Origin: Cytophagales bacterium
Lineage (GTDB): Bacteria > Bacteroidota > Bacteroidia > Cytophagales > UBA9547
Direction: 5' to 3'
Assembly (NCBI GenBank): GCA_014376535.1
Contig: JACMRH010000315.1
Span: 1-39,468 of the forward strand
DNA: 39,468 nucleotides
The position numbers and the translations under genes were made by a program. This document shows positions 16,115 through 24,304 of the stretch, piece after piece. Every line of letters begins with the position of its first letter. Positions within the stretch are counted from its first letter, which is position 1. The notes under the pieces were generated by a model that was not told where the DNA came from, did no database searches, and saw only the letters and a program-made list of their open reading frames with translations.

Positions 16115-16666
16115 ATGGGGGAAATTGTAAAAGGTGCTTTTATATCTGAACCAGAATTAATTGACCAGTTATTATCCCGGTCAAAAGGAGCCTTAGAATA
16201 TCTTTACGATAGATACTCTTCCTCACTTTACGGGATTATTTATAAAATAGTATCCCACGAAGCTGTAGCGGAAGAAGTATTACAAGACACTTTTATAAAA
16301 GTTTGGGACAAAGTAGGAGATTACGATAAAGCAAAAGGTCGTTTGTTTACCTGGATGCTTAACATTGCGCGAAACCTGGCTATAGATAAACTAAGGTCAA
16401 AAGAATTTTCACAAATGGGCAAAACCGATCATGGGTTTATGCACGTAAGTATCGAAGACAACAGCAAAGGAAACAAAGTTGTAGACGGTATTGGAATGGA
16501 TAACGTCTTGGCTCAGTTACAGCATGACCAAAGAATTCTTATTGAAATGATGTATTTTCAAGGATATTCTCAGTCTGAAATTTCTGATAAACTAGATATT
16601 CCACTTGGTACAGTCAAAACACGAGTTCGCGCTGGTATGTTGAAACTTAGGGAAATACTTAAATGA
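16115..16666 (+). CDS. ECF-type RNA polymerase sigma factor
   Basis: Sigma2 (EEVLQDTFIKVWDKVGDYD...FTWMLNIARNLAIDKLRS) and Sigma4 (EMMYFQGYSQSEISDKLDIPLGTVKTRVRAGM). Confidence 0.95.
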   Translation: MGEIVKGAFISEPELIDQLLSRSKGALEYLYDRYSSSLYGIIYKIVSHEAVAEEVLQDTFIKVWDKVGDYDKAKGRLFTWMLNIARNLAIDKLRSKEFSQMGKTDHGFMHVSIEDNSKGNKVVDGIGMDNVLAQLQHDQRILIEMMYFQGYSQSEISDKLDIPLGTVKTRVRAGMLKLREILK

Positions 16667-17481
16667 ACGTAAACGAATATATTGAATCAGGAATACTAGA
16701 TGTTTATGTTCTGGGAGGTCTTTCTCCAGAAGAAATTACGGAAGTAGAGGCATTTGCGACGAAATTTCCTGAAATCGGCAAAGAAATAGATTCTATTCGT
16801 TCAACAATAGAAGAAATGTCTTCTGTTGATTCTATTGCTCCATCATATCTTAACAAACAAAAACTATTTAACAAAATAGACCTTTTGCCTGCTGCCCAAG
16901 AAAAGGTTCCAACAAGTAAAACTATCAAATTTGATATAAAACCTTCACGGAATATTAATTTTGTATACTTTGCTATTGCTGCATCGTGGTTATTAACATT
17001 GCTTTCTGGCTATTTTGCTTTTCATTATAGAAATCAATGGTTAGATAGTGAAAACAAAATTTTAGCCCTTCAGAATGAGAATAAAGATTTAGCTACGAAT
17101 TTCAGTGTGACTAAAAGTAGTTACCAGGCTGCATCAAATCAATTAGCCGCAATTAACGATTCAAGCTTGAAAATGATCACATTAAAAGCATTGCCTGGTC
17201 GTCCTGCTGTTTTTGCTAAAATATTATGGAGTAAATCTAAACATCAGGTTTTATTAAGTTCTCTATCTTTACCTAAAGCACCTGAGGGCAAACAATATCA
17301 GTTATGGGCTATTGTAGATGGAAAACCTGTTGATGCTGGTGTGATTTCTACAAAGGATACACAACAACTTTCAAGAATGAAAGACATTTCTAATCCTAGT
17401 GCTTTTGCAGTGACATTGGAAAAAAGTGGTGGAAGTGAAGTTCCAACTATGGAAGAAATGTATGTTATAGGTAGAATTTAA
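16663..17481 (+). CDS. RskA-family anti-sigma factor
   Basis: Single TM (FVYFAIAASWLLTLLSGYFAF) and C-terminal VLLSSLSLPKAPEGKQYQLWAIVDGKPVDAGVIS; ATGA overlap with the sigma gene. Confidence 0.92.
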   Translation: MNVNEYIESGILDVYVLGGLSPEEITEVEAFATKFPEIGKEIDSIRSTIEEMSSVDSIAPSYLNKQKLFNKIDLLPAAQEKVPTSKTIKFDIKPSRNINFVYFAIAASWLLTLLSGYFAFHYRNQWLDSENKILALQNENKDLATNFSVTKSSYQAASNQLAAINDSSLKMITLKALPGRPAVFAKILWSKSKHQVLLSSLSLPKAPEGKQYQLWAIVDGKPVDAGVISTKDTQQLSRMKDISNPSAFAVTLEKSGGSEVPTMEEMYVIGRI

Positions 17482-18440: not shown

Positions 18441-18660
18441 GACGACAAAATTTAAAGTGAACAATAGTATGCCTCTAATTCAGACATGGATAAATTTAAC
18501 GTTTATTATATATTGTTGTTGTTTTATAATGTCTTTTTTTAAAACAAATTATAATTTTATAATGGTGGAAAATGGTTAGGGATTACGTATGTACAACAAT
18601 ATGGTGCAAACGTGGTATACAATTAGTAATTTTACTTTCGTAATTAAGGGTAACATAACA

Positions 18661-19617
18661 ATGCATTTTAAACCTATACTGTTTTTAATAATTTTCTCAT
18701 TACATATTTTGTGCCAAGCACAACCAGCCCCAGGGAATGATATGAATATTCCATATTTGGTAACGTTTGGAAAGGAAAGCGATACTAAGTGGGGAGACCA
18801 TGATTTTGTACAAACTTTTTTTGTGGAAGTTCCAGTCAATATCGGACAGCCATTCTACATCAGAATATTTGATCCTGAAGTTGGTGGTAAAATAGATGAA
18901 GCAAAAAATCATTTTAATACGCAAACAAGATTTAGCATTTATGGAGGCAAAGGAGCTGTTTCCGGTGTTGATGCCACAAAAGATTTGCCCGTGGGATCGA
19001 AACATACAGGAACTATCTTAAAAACAAAGGTTTTTTCGGTGGACCCCAAAACTGATGGTCAATGGTATTCATTTGGCCCTTTTAATCCCACTGAAGGAGA
19101 ATTAAATACAACAGAATATAATGGTTACATTTTTAAAATAGTGGCAGAAGGAATTTCAGGGGATGATGGAAACCTTTATAAATATTTCATAAGTTCTTCA
19201 GGGAGTGAGAATTCTGCCTTGGAAGGAGCCAATATCTTTACTTATGAGTATACTTTTCGGTTGTTTGATGAAATAGGTTCTATTTCACACATTTATCCAT
19301 TTGTAACCGATGATGTTGTTGCTGTTCACATTAAAACATTTGATTTAGATGACGACAGTTACATGAGATTGGTTTCGGTAGCTAAAAGAGGTGAGCAGAT
19401 TAAGGGTAGTAAGGAAGACCTTTGGGAAACAAGTATTCATAACATTGTTAAAGAAGAAAAAAAGACTTCCCTGGACATACAGATTATCAAGTCGAAAACC
19501 AAATCTAATAATAATATGGTTATGAGTATTACTAACCAATATGGGAAAAACATACCTTTTTACAATATACCAATTGGTGGCATACCAAAATATAAATACA
19601 CTATTAAAGTTAAATAA
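18661..19617 (+). CDS. Uncharacterised secreted protein co-transcribed with sensor kinase
   Basis: Signal peptide MHFKPILFLIIFSLHILCQA then PYLVTFGKESDTKWGDHDFVQTFFVEVPVNIGQPFYIRIFDPEVGGKIDE...; overlaps the next ATG (TAATG). Confidence 0.8.
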   Translation: MHFKPILFLIIFSLHILCQAQPAPGNDMNIPYLVTFGKESDTKWGDHDFVQTFFVEVPVNIGQPFYIRIFDPEVGGKIDEAKNHFNTQTRFSIYGGKGAVSGVDATKDLPVGSKHTGTILKTKVFSVDPKTDGQWYSFGPFNPTEGELNTTEYNGYIFKIVAEGISGDDGNLYKYFISSSGSENSALEGANIFTYEYTFRLFDEIGSISHIYPFVTDDVVAVHIKTFDLDDDSYMRLVSVAKRGEQIKGSKEDLWETSIHNIVKEEKKTSLDIQIIKSKTKSNNNMVMSITNQYGKNIPFYNIPIGGIPKYKYTIKVK

Positions 19618-22600
19618 TGAGGATACTTTCCTTAGGTGTAATTATATTTATTTTATGTGTTAAGGCACTTGCAAATGACTATCAGATAACCGTTTATACA
19701 CGGCATCAAGGGTTGCCTCAGGATTATGTTTATACTTTGTTGCAAGACCAAAAGAACTATTTATGGGTTGGAACAGGAAATGGTCTGGTAAAATTTGACG
19801 GAAAAACATTTTTACATTATAAAACCAGTAGTGGATTAAAGGAAGATTTTATAACCGCTTCATGTATCACTCCTTTTGGTGAAAGGATTTTTTCTCATTT
19901 CGGAGGAAATATTTCATCATTTTATAATGGCCAATTCAAATCTTACACCACTAAAAAGGTTACAACCGCAAGTATTACCAATATCATTTTTAGAAACAAT
20001 TTTCTTTGGGTTGGAACAAAAGAAGGTGAAGTTATGGCTATTCATAACCATAATAAATCTATTAAGAAGTGGCTTTTAGGGCAATACGAATCTGTTGAGT
20101 TTATTGATTCAACAAAAAATGCTTCTAATATCTTAGTTGCAACTGAGGCACTTATCTATTTATTAGAATACAATTCTACTAACAAAACTGAAAAAATTAC
20201 AAAATACCGGGTTCCAGATGGCAGTGGGATTAAAAGCATTTCCAGGTTAAATTCCCGTAAATGGTTGGTCGCTTCACAGGATAACAATATTTATATTCTA
20301 GAGGATTCTGAAAATGGTTTAAAATTTAGCAACCTCTCTATGAGTAAGTTTTCTGCCAATATTGGTTTTATACATAGCACCGGGAATAATAGGTTTTGGC
20401 TTACGAATGACGATGGTCTTTGGACCGAATATAAATATTTTCAAAACAATGCCATCCAAATTAGTACTGTAAAATTGCCTGCAAATTTTTCCCATATGGT
20501 TCCCAACTTAATGTTTGAGGATAATGAGGGTAATGTTTGGATAGGAACTTTTGGAAGTGGTTTAATAAAATTATCAATTAAAAGAAGCATTTTCTATTCT
20601 TTAGGGCCTCAATCTGAAACGAAAGTTAACTCAGTATTAATGTCCTCTTCAAATGACATCTTGCTCGGCACAAATCATGGAATATACCAATCAACACCTA
20701 ATCTTGGCAAGTTTTCTCTTAGGAATGTAAAATTAAATGATGGGGTAGTATCTATTTGTGAAGTAACTAAGAATGAATTTATCATTGCCACTGAAAACTC
20801 TGTTGTTTATCGATGGGATCCCTCTAATGACAAACTTATTAGCTGGACAATTCCAATTAGCGGACAAGATAAGGTAAAACAAATTGTTCGGGATAGGGAT
20901 AATAATATTTGGATAGCTACCTCATCAGGAGCAATTTTATTTGATGTTAAAAGAAAACAGTTTAGGATTTTTACTATGGAGGACGGCATGGCACATAACT
21001 ATGTCTATTGTGTTTTTCCTGATTCTCACGGCAGGGTATGGTTTGGAACACATAAATCTGGTTTATCTTATTATAATGGCAAAAAAATTATAACACTTCA
21101 ATCACCTTTAGATAATTCCGGTTTAGATATAAACTGCTTCTCTGAAGACAATAACGGTAATGTTTGGGTGGGTACTTCAGGTCAAGGATTATTCCTGATA
21201 GATAAACAGGATAAGTTTATAAAATTCATTTCTACAGCTGATGGGCTTTTATCAGATTACATTTATTTCTTTCAAAAAGACCTACAAGGAGCAACATGGG
21301 TAGGTCATAAAAATGGGTTAGAAAGAATAATAACCAATCCTCATAACAATGCTGTTATATCAGATTATTCTCAATACATAGCAGAAAAGGAATTAACACA
21401 AGCCACTTACCAAACTAAAGAGAGTAGTAACATATGGATAGGAGGGTTAAATGTGTGTATCCGATTCGATGTTAGTCCTGAAAATAAGTCTCCTATTGGA
21501 TCCTATGTTGATATATCAGATTTGAAACTTAATTATGACAATATAAACTGGAGTGAACGCGGCAAAATAAAATATCAAAATGAAATTCCAGATAATCTCA
21601 TTTTTAAACATAATGAAAACCTGCTAACCTTTACTTTTAATGGTATTTCATTTTCTTACAATGAAAAACTCCGGTACCAATATAAATTATCTGGATTTGA
21701 TGATAATTGGTCTCTTTTAACAGAACAGAATTTTGTAACTTATAATAAGCTGCCTCCTGGTTCATATACATTTTTAGTTAAATCACGAAATTATGCAGGT
21801 ATTTGGAGCTCTCAACCTACATCTTTGCACTTTCAAATTACACCACCATATTGGGAAACATGGTGGTTCAGAATTTTATTCTTCCTGATTTTAATTATTT
21901 CTGTTTATCTCTTTATTAAAATTCGAACTTCTACATTAAGGAAAAGAAACCAGGCCCTTGAGATTGAGAAAAATAAACTGGAAAATGAAATTAAAGAAAG
22001 AAAGCTTGTTGAAAGTAAACTGTTAAAAAGTGAGTTGAGCCTTACTAATACCAACCAGGAACTTAGCACACTTATTTACAGAGCTTCTCATGATTTAAGA
22101 GGACCGGTTTCTACTATTTCAGGTTTAGTTAATGTAGCCCACTTACATATTGCAGATAAAGAATCTTTGAATTTCTTCGATATGATCAATACATCCGTGG
22201 CCAGGCTTGATCAGATTTTAAAAAAGCTATTCTTAGTATCAGAAATAAAACAAAACGATATTATACCTGAAATATTCAGCATAAGAAATTCCTTAGAAAC
22301 AGTTATTTCCAGTTTTAAAAGTGAAATAAAGGAAAAGAATTTTAAAATAGTTTATAAAGGGGAGGACTTGAATTTTTGTTCAGATAAAAAGTTATTTGAA
22401 ACTATAGTCAAAAATATTGTTGATAATTCATTTACTTATAATCGAAAATCAGATCCTGAATTAATTGTTCAGATTACCAGGATAGAAGATTCTGTATTGA
22501 TAAACTTTTGGGACAATGGAAAAGGTATTAAATCAGAACACCAGATTAAAATATTCGACATGTTTTACAAAGCGAGTGATCTTTCTAAAGGAAATGGCTT

Positions 22601-22721
22601 AGGTTTGTATATTGCAAAAAATGCCATTCAATTGCTGAAAGGAGAGATATCAGTAAGCAGCAAAGAGAATGAGTTTACACAAATAAATGTTTCTATTCCC
22701 GAATATCAAAAAAAGAGTTGA
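19617..22721 (+). CDS. Sensor histidine kinase with two-component-regulator propeller, Y_Y_Y domain, TM and HisKA/HATPase
   Basis: Repeated LWVGTGNGL / VWIGTFGSGL / VWFGTHKSGL blades, Y_Y_Y (RYQYKLSGFDDNW...NYAGIWS), TM, YRASHDLRGPVS, NIVDNSFTYN, GNGLGLYIAKN. Confidence 0.93.
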   Translation: MRILSLGVIIFILCVKALANDYQITVYTRHQGLPQDYVYTLLQDQKNYLWVGTGNGLVKFDGKTFLHYKTSSGLKEDFITASCITPFGERIFSHFGGNISSFYNGQFKSYTTKKVTTASITNIIFRNNFLWVGTKEGEVMAIHNHNKSIKKWLLGQYESVEFIDSTKNASNILVATEALIYLLEYNSTNKTEKITKYRVPDGSGIKSISRLNSRKWLVASQDNNIYILEDSENGLKFSNLSMSKFSANIGFIHSTGNNRFWLTNDDGLWTEYKYFQNNAIQISTVKLPANFSHMVPNLMFEDNEGNVWIGTFGSGLIKLSIKRSIFYSLGPQSETKVNSVLMSSSNDILLGTNHGIYQSTPNLGKFSLRNVKLNDGVVSICEVTKNEFIIATENSVVYRWDPSNDKLISWTIPISGQDKVKQIVRDRDNNIWIATSSGAILFDVKRKQFRIFTMEDGMAHNYVYCVFPDSHGRVWFGTHKSGLSYYNGKKIITLQSPLDNSGLDINCFSEDNNGNVWVGTSGQGLFLIDKQDKFIKFISTADGLLSDYIYFFQKDLQGATWVGHKNGLERIITNPHNNAVISDYSQYIAEKELTQATYQTKESSNIWIGGLNVCIRFDVSPENKSPIGSYVDISDLKLNYDNINWSERGKIKYQNEIPDNLIFKHNENLLTFTFNGISFSYNEKLRYQYKLSGFDDNWSLLTEQNFVTYNKLPPGSYTFLVKSRNYAGIWSSQPTSLHFQITPPYWETWWFRILFFLILIISVYLFIKIRTSTLRKRNQALEIEKNKLENEIKERKLVESKLLKSELSLTNTNQELSTLIYRASHDLRGPVSTISGLVNVAHLHIADKESLNFFDMINTSVARLDQILKKLFLVSEIKQNDIIPEIFSIRNSLETVISSFKSEIKEKNFKIVYKGEDLNFCSDKKLFETIVKNIVDNSFTYNRKSDPELIVQITRIEDSVLINFWDNGKGIKSEHQIKIFDMFYKASDLSKGNGLGLYIAKNAIQLLKGEISVSSKENEFTQINVSIPEYQKKS

Positions 22722-22723
22722 GT

Positions 22724-23164
22724 ATGCATATGAATGAAATGAATGTGGCTTTAACAGAGCTGATAGACAAAAGGAACCATTTGGCTACATTGAGTTATTC
22801 CGACACAAAATACGATGAACTGGAAGAGGTTTTACATGAGCTAGAAGATGATTTTCTTGATGAATATGGAGAATACATGGACAAAGTGCTAACTCAGGTT
22901 CACGAGAAAAATTTTCCAGAATCAGATGTACTATCTCCTATAGCTTATCTGGCTAAAAAATATGCTGTTAAGAATACTCATCCTGATGGTACTGTTGAAT
23001 ATAACATCCCAGCCAAAGATGGTGTTTGGGTTGAAGCTTATGCTTATCCAAATAAAGACATCAGACTTATATTGCTCGCCAACCCTCCTAGATTAGTCAT
23101 GCATTTTGATAAGGGGATACAAAAAGAAGTTTGGAATGCAGATAAAGACCATGTTGTAAGTTGA
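22724..23164 (+). CDS. Conserved hypothetical small acidic protein
   Basis: About 146 aa, YDELEEVLHELEDDFLDEYGEYMDKVL...; immediately after the kinase stop. Confidence 0.75.
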   Translation: MHMNEMNVALTELIDKRNHLATLSYSDTKYDELEEVLHELEDDFLDEYGEYMDKVLTQVHEKNFPESDVLSPIAYLAKKYAVKNTHPDGTVEYNIPAKDGVWVEAYAYPNKDIRLILLANPPRLVMHFDKGIQKEVWNADKDHVVS

Positions 23165-23167
23165 AAA

Positions 23168-24304
23168 TCAAGATAGCCTGTTTTTAAAATTTTCATAATC
23201 GAATTTTTTAAGCAGGCTAAACCCCCCATTAGTTTTTATAATTCCAATTGAGGGGTGGGGAACACCATTAAAAGTACTGGTTTTTACCATAGTGTAATGG
23301 ATCATATCTTCAAAAATGACAGCATCACCTATTTGTAAATCATTTTTGAAACACCAATCTCCCATATAGTCTCCTGACAGACAAGTATTTCCACCTAATC
23401 TATATGGTTTGTTGATTCCGTCCGGCTCAAATGCTTCTCTTACTTTAGGCTTATAAGGCATTTCCAGACAATCGGGCATGTGTGCTGTGAAAGATACGTC
23501 CAGCATAGCTGTTGTTATTCCATGGTTTTCAACTATATCCAATACTTTAGAATATAAAAAACCAGTCTGCCATGCAAAAGCGCTTCCAGGTTCAAGAATT
23601 ATATTAACACTATATTTTTTCTTAAAATCCACCAATAGCTTTATAAGATGTTCTATATCATAACCTTGCTTAGTCATTAAATGACCTCCTCCCATATTCA
23701 CCCATTTGATTTGAGGTAAAAACTTTCCAAATCTTTCAGTAAATGCTGCCAGGGTTTTTTCTAAATCATAGGAGTTTGATTCGCAAAGCGCATGAAAATG
23801 TAAACCTTCAACGCCTTCCGGTAGCTTATCCCCAAATTTATCACAAGTAATACCTAATCTGCTTCCAGGTTCACATGGATTATACAAATCTGTTTCAACT
23901 TCTGAATATTCTGGATTAACTCTCAGACCAATAGATACCTTGCGTCCTGAATTTTTGATTATTGGATAGAATAAATTGTATTGACTGAGTGAATTAAATG
24001 TAATGTGACTGCTTTTTTCAATTATTTCATGAATTTCACTTTCAGAATATACAGGGGCATAAGTATGAGAAAGGGTTTTCATCTCTTCAAAACATAATTT
24101 TACTTCATGAAGTGAACTTGCAGTTGCACCATTTATATATTCTCTAATAATGGGAAATACACCCCACATTGAAAAGCCTTTAAAGGCCAGTATAATATCA
24201 ATATTTGCCCTTTCTTTAACAGACTTAATTAATTCAAGGTTTTTTCTTAATAATTGTTCTTCAAGAACATAGCATGGAGAAGGAATAGATTTGTAATTTT
24301 CCAT
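23168..24304 (-). CDS. nspC: Carboxynorspermidine decarboxylase
   Basis: PSPCYVLEEQLLRKNLELI, LHFHALCESNSYDLEKTL, WVNMGGGHLMT, LEPGSAFAWQTGFL; PLP fold III decarboxylase. Confidence 0.92.
   Translation of the reverse strand: MENYKSIPSPCYVLEEQLLRKNLELIKSVKERANIDIILAFKGFSMWGVFPIIREYINGATASSLHEVKLCFEEMKTLSHTYAPVYSESEIHEIIEKSSHITFNSLSQYNLFYPIIKNSGRKVSIGLRVNPEYSEVETDLYNPCEPGSRLGITCDKFGDKLPEGVEGLHFHALCESNSYDLEKTLAAFTERFGKFLPQIKWVNMGGGHLMTKQGYDIEHLIKLLVDFKKKYSVNIILEPGSAFAWQTGFLYSKVLDIVENHGITTAMLDVSFTAHMPDCLEMPYKPKVREAFEPDGINKPYRLGGNTCLSGDYMGDWCFKNDLQIGDAVIFEDMIHYTMVKTSTFNGVPHPSIGIIKTNGGFSLLKKFDYENFKNRLS

Follow-up and report, generated by a model that had tools for sequence, protein, structure and literature searches.

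We analysed a 39,468-nucleotide stretch of DNA from a Cytophagales bacterium (contig JACMRH010000315.1 of assembly GCA_014376535.1), here called the window, in which three closely packed genes encode a secreted protein (gene 1), a sensor histidine kinase with periplasmic propellers, and a small protein (gene 3) (Table 1). An earlier, sequence-only reading treated the three as one coupled module. We find that gene 1 and the propeller sensor are a genuine, conserved pair that usually belongs to an operon for a surface protein of the type IX secretion system (T9SS), and that gene 3 is not part of it. The three open reading frames and the TAATG overlap at 19615-19619 lie where that reading put them, with the TAA of gene 1 (19615-19617) overlapping the ATG of the kinase (19617-19619); the kinase stop (TGA 22719-22721) is separated from the gene 3 start (ATG 22724) by two bases, not by three as had been stated. 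An alternative, longer form of gene 1 could start at the in-frame ATG at 18589, but 18661 is the start that agrees with the signal peptide and with the homologues. A Pfam scan agrees that the kinase is of the propeller/Y_Y_Y type, with no receiver or helix-turn-helix (HTH) domain found over its 1034 residues; its HisKA match (E 5e-5) is under the curated cut-off. As also claimed, no response regulator is adjacent: none is found among the flanking genes scanned with Pfam and NCBIfam.

Table 1. Genes of the locus and domains of the sensor, in window coordinates
Feature	Coordinates	Strand	Description
Gene 1	18661..19617	+	318 aa; Sec signal; without lipobox and without T9SS C-terminal domain; undescribed family
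Sensor histidine kinase	19617..22721	+	1034 aa; signal sequence, periplasmic Reg_prop propellers, Y_Y_Y, one membrane segment, HisKA, HATPase_c
Y_Y_Y of sensor	21651..21839	+	residues 679-741; domain scan
Predicted membrane segment of sensor	21864..21929	+	~residues 750-771; from sequence; W750/F751 conserved
HisKA of sensor	22065..22250	+	residues 817-878; H-box SHDLRGP
HATPase_c of sensor	22383..22703	+	residues 923-1029; N and G boxes intact
Gene 3	22724..23164	+	146 aa; alpha+beta; outside the module

Gene 1 represents an undescribed Bacteroidota family. Searching one genome per species for homologues yielded 46 loci, and a profile run against 395 genomes drawn evenly across the class matched at 54 places in 49 of them; six of 59 relatives carry the gene. 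The members of a 42-protein alignment are 44-59% identical to the window protein and share 46 invariant columns. Conserved acidic motifs (GDDD, FDPD..GG..DE, GDDGNLYKY and FDWDNDG) run through the family, and D46, D48, D71, D79, E80, D169, D228, D230 and D232 are invariant or nearly so. No Pfam family matches at E<1, hence there is no type A or CHU_C T9SS signal domain; NCBIfam gives nothing meaningful, and the best relative in the PDB by profile (E 0.31) is at chance level. The earlier statement that the secreted protein has no recognised family is thus borne out. Because 41 of the 42 members lack a lipobox and no T9SS C-terminal domain is present, gene 1 likely encodes a soluble periplasmic protein. 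Its predicted structure is of high confidence (pLDDT 87.1, pTM 0.84) and almost all beta, and the fold probably consists of many strands in two beta-sandwich domains; TM-scores to double beta-sandwich proteins in Foldseek are only ~0.2 and were not used as an assignment. The many conserved acidic residues and the all-beta model, with its weak likeness to double beta-sandwich ectodomains, would fit a soluble co-sensor that binds a ligand such as calcium or a glycan and presents it to the propeller sensor, the T9SS complex being only a regulated output. With no match to a binding-protein family and no fold identified at such TM-scores, we regard this explanation as unlikely. Two loci (L050:3286-4246 and L052:5423-6330) have gene 1 fragmented into two or more frames, either by a frameshift or by an error of assembly.

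We find that gene 1 is tightly linked to propeller sensors. Across 98 non-redundant loci (identical loci counted once, the window excluded), the next same-strand gene after gene 1 is a Reg_prop (Reg_prop/Y_Y_Y) sensor in 82, far above chance. This linkage is not built in, because the searches behind the counts used gene 1 alone as query. The gap between the two genes has a median of 3 nt, with many 4-nt or 1-nt overlaps, and in the class draw alone a sensor follows gene 1 in 39/50 cases, two further loci ending at a contig edge. On a FastTree phylogeny of 105 propeller regions, some with long branches (76 linked to gene 1 and 29 not), the label "linked" changes 3 times, compared with a mean of 25.5 changes for shuffled labels (0/500 shuffles as low). 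Gene 1 and sensor also show correlated pairwise identities (r = 0.86; 0/1000 permutations). Reg_prop/Y_Y_Y sensors are common in Bacteroidota and other sensors exist in the window's genome, which could point to an ordinary regulator of the polysaccharide-utilisation style next to an unrelated secreted protein, with no special coupling. Given the adjacency in 82/98 loci, the clustering of labels on the tree, the lack of a receiver or AraC domain, and a recurring context of T9SS genes and not of polysaccharide loci, we consider this highly improbable.

Several other arrangements were seen among these sensors. In one locus (G358:C11:83940-89489) gene 1 is followed directly by two tandem propeller sensors, and in L048:9992-14146 and L120:2796-5998 the sensor is split over two or more reading frames, the result of a frameshift or of an assembly error. 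Where related Reg_prop sensors lack gene 1, other recurrent partners are found upstream, namely secreted CarboxypepD_reg-like, caspase-domain/TPR, or CHAT/TPR proteins; the partner loci are listed in three groups (L196-L206 and L210; L207, L209 and L211-L215; L200 and L208), and the CHAT/TPR-partnered sensors have kinase output. Possibly every clade of sensors has a dedicated partner of its own.

The wider context of the pair, beyond the sight of the sequence-only reading, is a T9SS surface-protein operon. Directly upstream of gene 1 lies a PorE-like gene with PD40/PKD domains, with or without OmpA, in 62/98 loci; 37 of these 62 proteins are at least 600 aa long, and several have an OmpA domain according to Pfam. 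PorP/SprF is present in 45 loci and stands directly before the PD40/PKD gene in all 45, and directly upstream of PorP, in 43/45, is a protein with a CHU_C (type B) C-terminal domain, counted by profile; the other two loci reach contig ends. Pfam analysis of exemplar loci confirms CHU_C, PorP_SprF and PD40/PKD/OmpA. From these counts, the usual operon order is T9SS surface protein, PorP, PorE-like protein, gene 1 and sensor. Gene 1 is common to two partial contexts: in 11/16 sensor-less loci it has a PorE-like/PKD gene upstream, and in 29 loci it has the sensor without a PorE-like gene.

In the window's genome this operon is split. The sister-genus loci L007-L009 have all five genes in one operon, the sensor being of the kinase type. 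A separate contig of the window's own genome, C274 (L183:3150-7059), encodes a CHU_C tail, PorP and a PorE-like protein, without gene 1 or sensor. This PorE-like orthologue is 42% identical over its length to that of the sister genus (625 bits), and the next best match scores 148 bits, with 34% identity over a part. The genome has about 30 PorP-like matches, and at 19 other PorP loci no propeller sensor follows PorP, as far as the contigs run. Because this is a fragmented metagenome-assembled genome (551 contigs, contamination 5.55%), the split is firm only in the sense that the two halves are not adjacent on these contigs. The arrangements described so far bear on the main rival explanation, in which gene 1 serves the PorP-PorE complex structurally or in its assembly (as a periplasmic plug, a chaperone or an extra tether) and the sensor, placed in the operon to regulate expression of the complex, does not contact gene 1. 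The 11 sensor-less loci that keep gene 1 with a PorE-like gene argue for it, as do the much better conservation of gene 1 than of the sensor and the lack of any gene 1-sensor fusion in the 54 places found (open frames up to 407 aa). It is weakened by the 29 loci that pair gene 1 with a sensor and have no PorE-like neighbour, by the window, which keeps gene 1 and sensor though the PorE-like operon has moved elsewhere, and by the clustering of linked sensors apart on the tree. On balance, we think that a purely structural role is rather unlikely.

We find that the output domain of the sensor is variable. Among the 82 linked sensors, 68 carry SpoIIE and 4 carry HisKA/HATPase domains, and 10 are partial or without output; the HisKA/HATPase users are the window, the sister genus and one other locus. 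Since the kinase-type sensor of L012 is nested among SpoIIE sensors on the propeller tree, at least one exchange of outputs has taken place. The earlier view of the kinase as the sensor of the module thus needs amending: a propeller sensor is indeed the partner of gene 1, but kinase output is the exception and most partners are SpoIIE phosphatases. Two sensors stop after the membrane part; near that of L028 a response regulator is encoded, and near that of L136 a His_kinase/LytTR pair. A sequence search over all loci, with duplicates counted, finds SiaC-type genes (PF09345) in 13 loci and SiaB-like DUF6272 genes in 6; in about a dozen loci such genes follow the sensor, several of them directly, or flank gene 1. 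At L016:2172-3524 and L151:4797-6152, a SiaC-type gene adjoins a gene 1 copy that has no propeller sensor after it, and these neighbours tie gene 1 to Sia-type signalling even without a sensor.

Based on these data, we propose that gene 1 and its sensor form the signalling arm of a T9SS surface complex, with gene 1 as periplasmic coupler, a proposal that we rate as evenly balanced. Gene 1 would act as a soluble link across the periplasm between the surface complex and its own sensor. On one side, it may contact the complex and sense the state of the surface protein, PorP and PorE, for instance that export is completed, that the surface protein is engaged, or that the tether is strained. On the other side, it would bind the periplasmic propeller/Y_Y_Y region of the sensor, and binding would switch the cytoplasmic output, so that the sensor would in effect read the state of the surface protein. 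The usual response would run through a SpoIIE/PP2C phosphatase in a partner switch like that of SiaA/SiaB/SiaC; in the genus of the window and its sister genus it would run through a histidine kinase and a response regulator encoded elsewhere. This coupler role explains why gene 1 occurs both with a PorE-like gene only (the 11 loci above) and with a sensor only (the 29 loci). It also suits part of an earlier suggestion for gene 1, that of ligand, co-sensor or modulator, in that a co-sensor or modulator fits. The broader claim is one that we advance more tentatively, at somewhat under an even chance: that this is an undescribed form of trans-envelope signalling in Bacteroidota, in which a T9SS-exported surface protein held by PorP-PorE signals through gene 1 to a propeller sensor whose output can be exchanged (SpoIIE with SiaB/SiaC, a histidine kinase, or no output in the same chain) and so reports its own export or engagement.

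A number of observations weigh against the coupler proposal. About one in seven gene 1 loci have no sensor, about a third have no recognisable PorE-like neighbour, and in the window no PorP or PKD match lies immediately before gene 1, PorP and PorE being absent from the window altogether. The agreement of identities and of the tree is partly expected from co-inheritance within an operon. Mean pairwise identity is 50% for gene 1 versus 28% for the sensor, and because gene 1 is so much better conserved it may serve a separate, conserved function. Finally, PorP is found in 387/395 genomes; its presence is useless as a phylogenetic-profile test, and the presence of a T9SS can therefore not discriminate.

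Several known systems are close to the operon. In P. gingivalis, PorE, PorP and the type B protein PG1035 were shown biochemically to form a complex (PMC9143113), and PorE/type B/SprF operons of F. johnsoniae (Fjoh_3952-3951-3950) have been proposed to make static, wall-anchored surface complexes (PMC12618676). In relatives of the window locus, the genes for a CHU_C protein, PorP/SprF and a PorE-like protein with PD40/OmpA follow one another in this order, and the operon additionally contains gene 1 and a transmembrane sensor; the window's genome has the two halves on different contigs. Relative to PorE as described (PMC9143113), their PorE-like proteins have PKD in place of the other middle domain, mostly lack TPR and often lack OmpA. 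The word "sensor" does not occur in PMC9143113, nor "kinase" in PMC12618676, and searching the literature yielded no report that combines T9SS with SpoIIE and PKD, or a propeller sensor with SpoIIE. P. aeruginosa SiaA and SiaB determine the phosphorylation state of SiaC and govern biofilm formation (PMC7647112). Most linked sensors share with SiaABC(D) the SpoIIE/PP2C output, and some loci share the SiaC and DUF6272 genes; no SiaD was identified. Their Reg_prop/Y_Y_Y double-propeller input is different, as is the histidine kinase output of the window member. The window sensor resembles the hybrid two-component systems of Bacteroidota in its periplasmic Reg_prop and Y_Y_Y regions, HisKA and HATPase_c; it differs in having no receiver and no AraC-type HTH and in having a dedicated secreted partner gene, and gene 1-linked sensors as a group differ in their T9SS surface-protein context. 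Lastly, PorZ, a T9SS surface component that delivers anionic lipopolysaccharide (A-LPS) to PorU (PMC8545088), has a similar two-propeller architecture, and one linked sensor weakly matches the PorZ propeller (E 1e-5, below the cut-off). PorZ is a surface component, whereas the linked sensors are membrane proteins with cytoplasmic output domains.

Type B T9SS proteins and PorP-PorE anchors are present many times per genome and their purpose is mostly unknown. If our proposal is correct, the operon-borne sensor would be a first handle on how a PorP-PorE surface complex is monitored and might open a way to surface sensing in Bacteroidota. Gene 1, a conserved family outside Pfam and NCBIfam, would gain a function too. 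One input module is here paired with interchangeable output domains.

Gene 3 does not belong to this system. It is widespread in the order: homologues occur in 35/59 relatives, almost all without gene 1 nearby, and in other genera the gene lies beside unrelated genes. The kinase-gene 3 arrangement is repeated only in the congener G002, on a contig that ends inside the kinase. With no linkage outside the genus, we ruled out gene 3 as a part of the module, so that the proposed three-gene unit survives as the gene 1-sensor pair; likewise, the co-occurrence with propeller kinases that had been suggested as a check is found for gene 1 and not for gene 3, whose neighbourhoods outside the genus are unrelated. 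Gene 3 is a chance neighbour or a genus-specific insertion. It encodes an undescribed small conserved protein with a confident alpha+beta model (pLDDT 90.6), for which there is no Pfam family, nothing meaningful in NCBIfam and no PDB match to the model, in keeping with the earlier description of the third product as unrecognised. Structure prediction, another suggestion of the sequence-only reading, thus gave models for genes 1 and 3 but no good match to a solved fold for either.

The remaining neighbours in the window are, upstream, genes for an ECF (extracytoplasmic function) sigma factor, an RskA-like protein, a hexapeptide protein and S30AE and, downstream, genes for NspC and a CCG-domain protein. 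The ECF sigma factor gene overlaps the RskA-like anti-sigma gene (16115-17481, upstream of the pair). Adjoining gene 3 on the opposite strand (23168-24304) is a gene for carboxynorspermidine decarboxylase (NspC equivalog).

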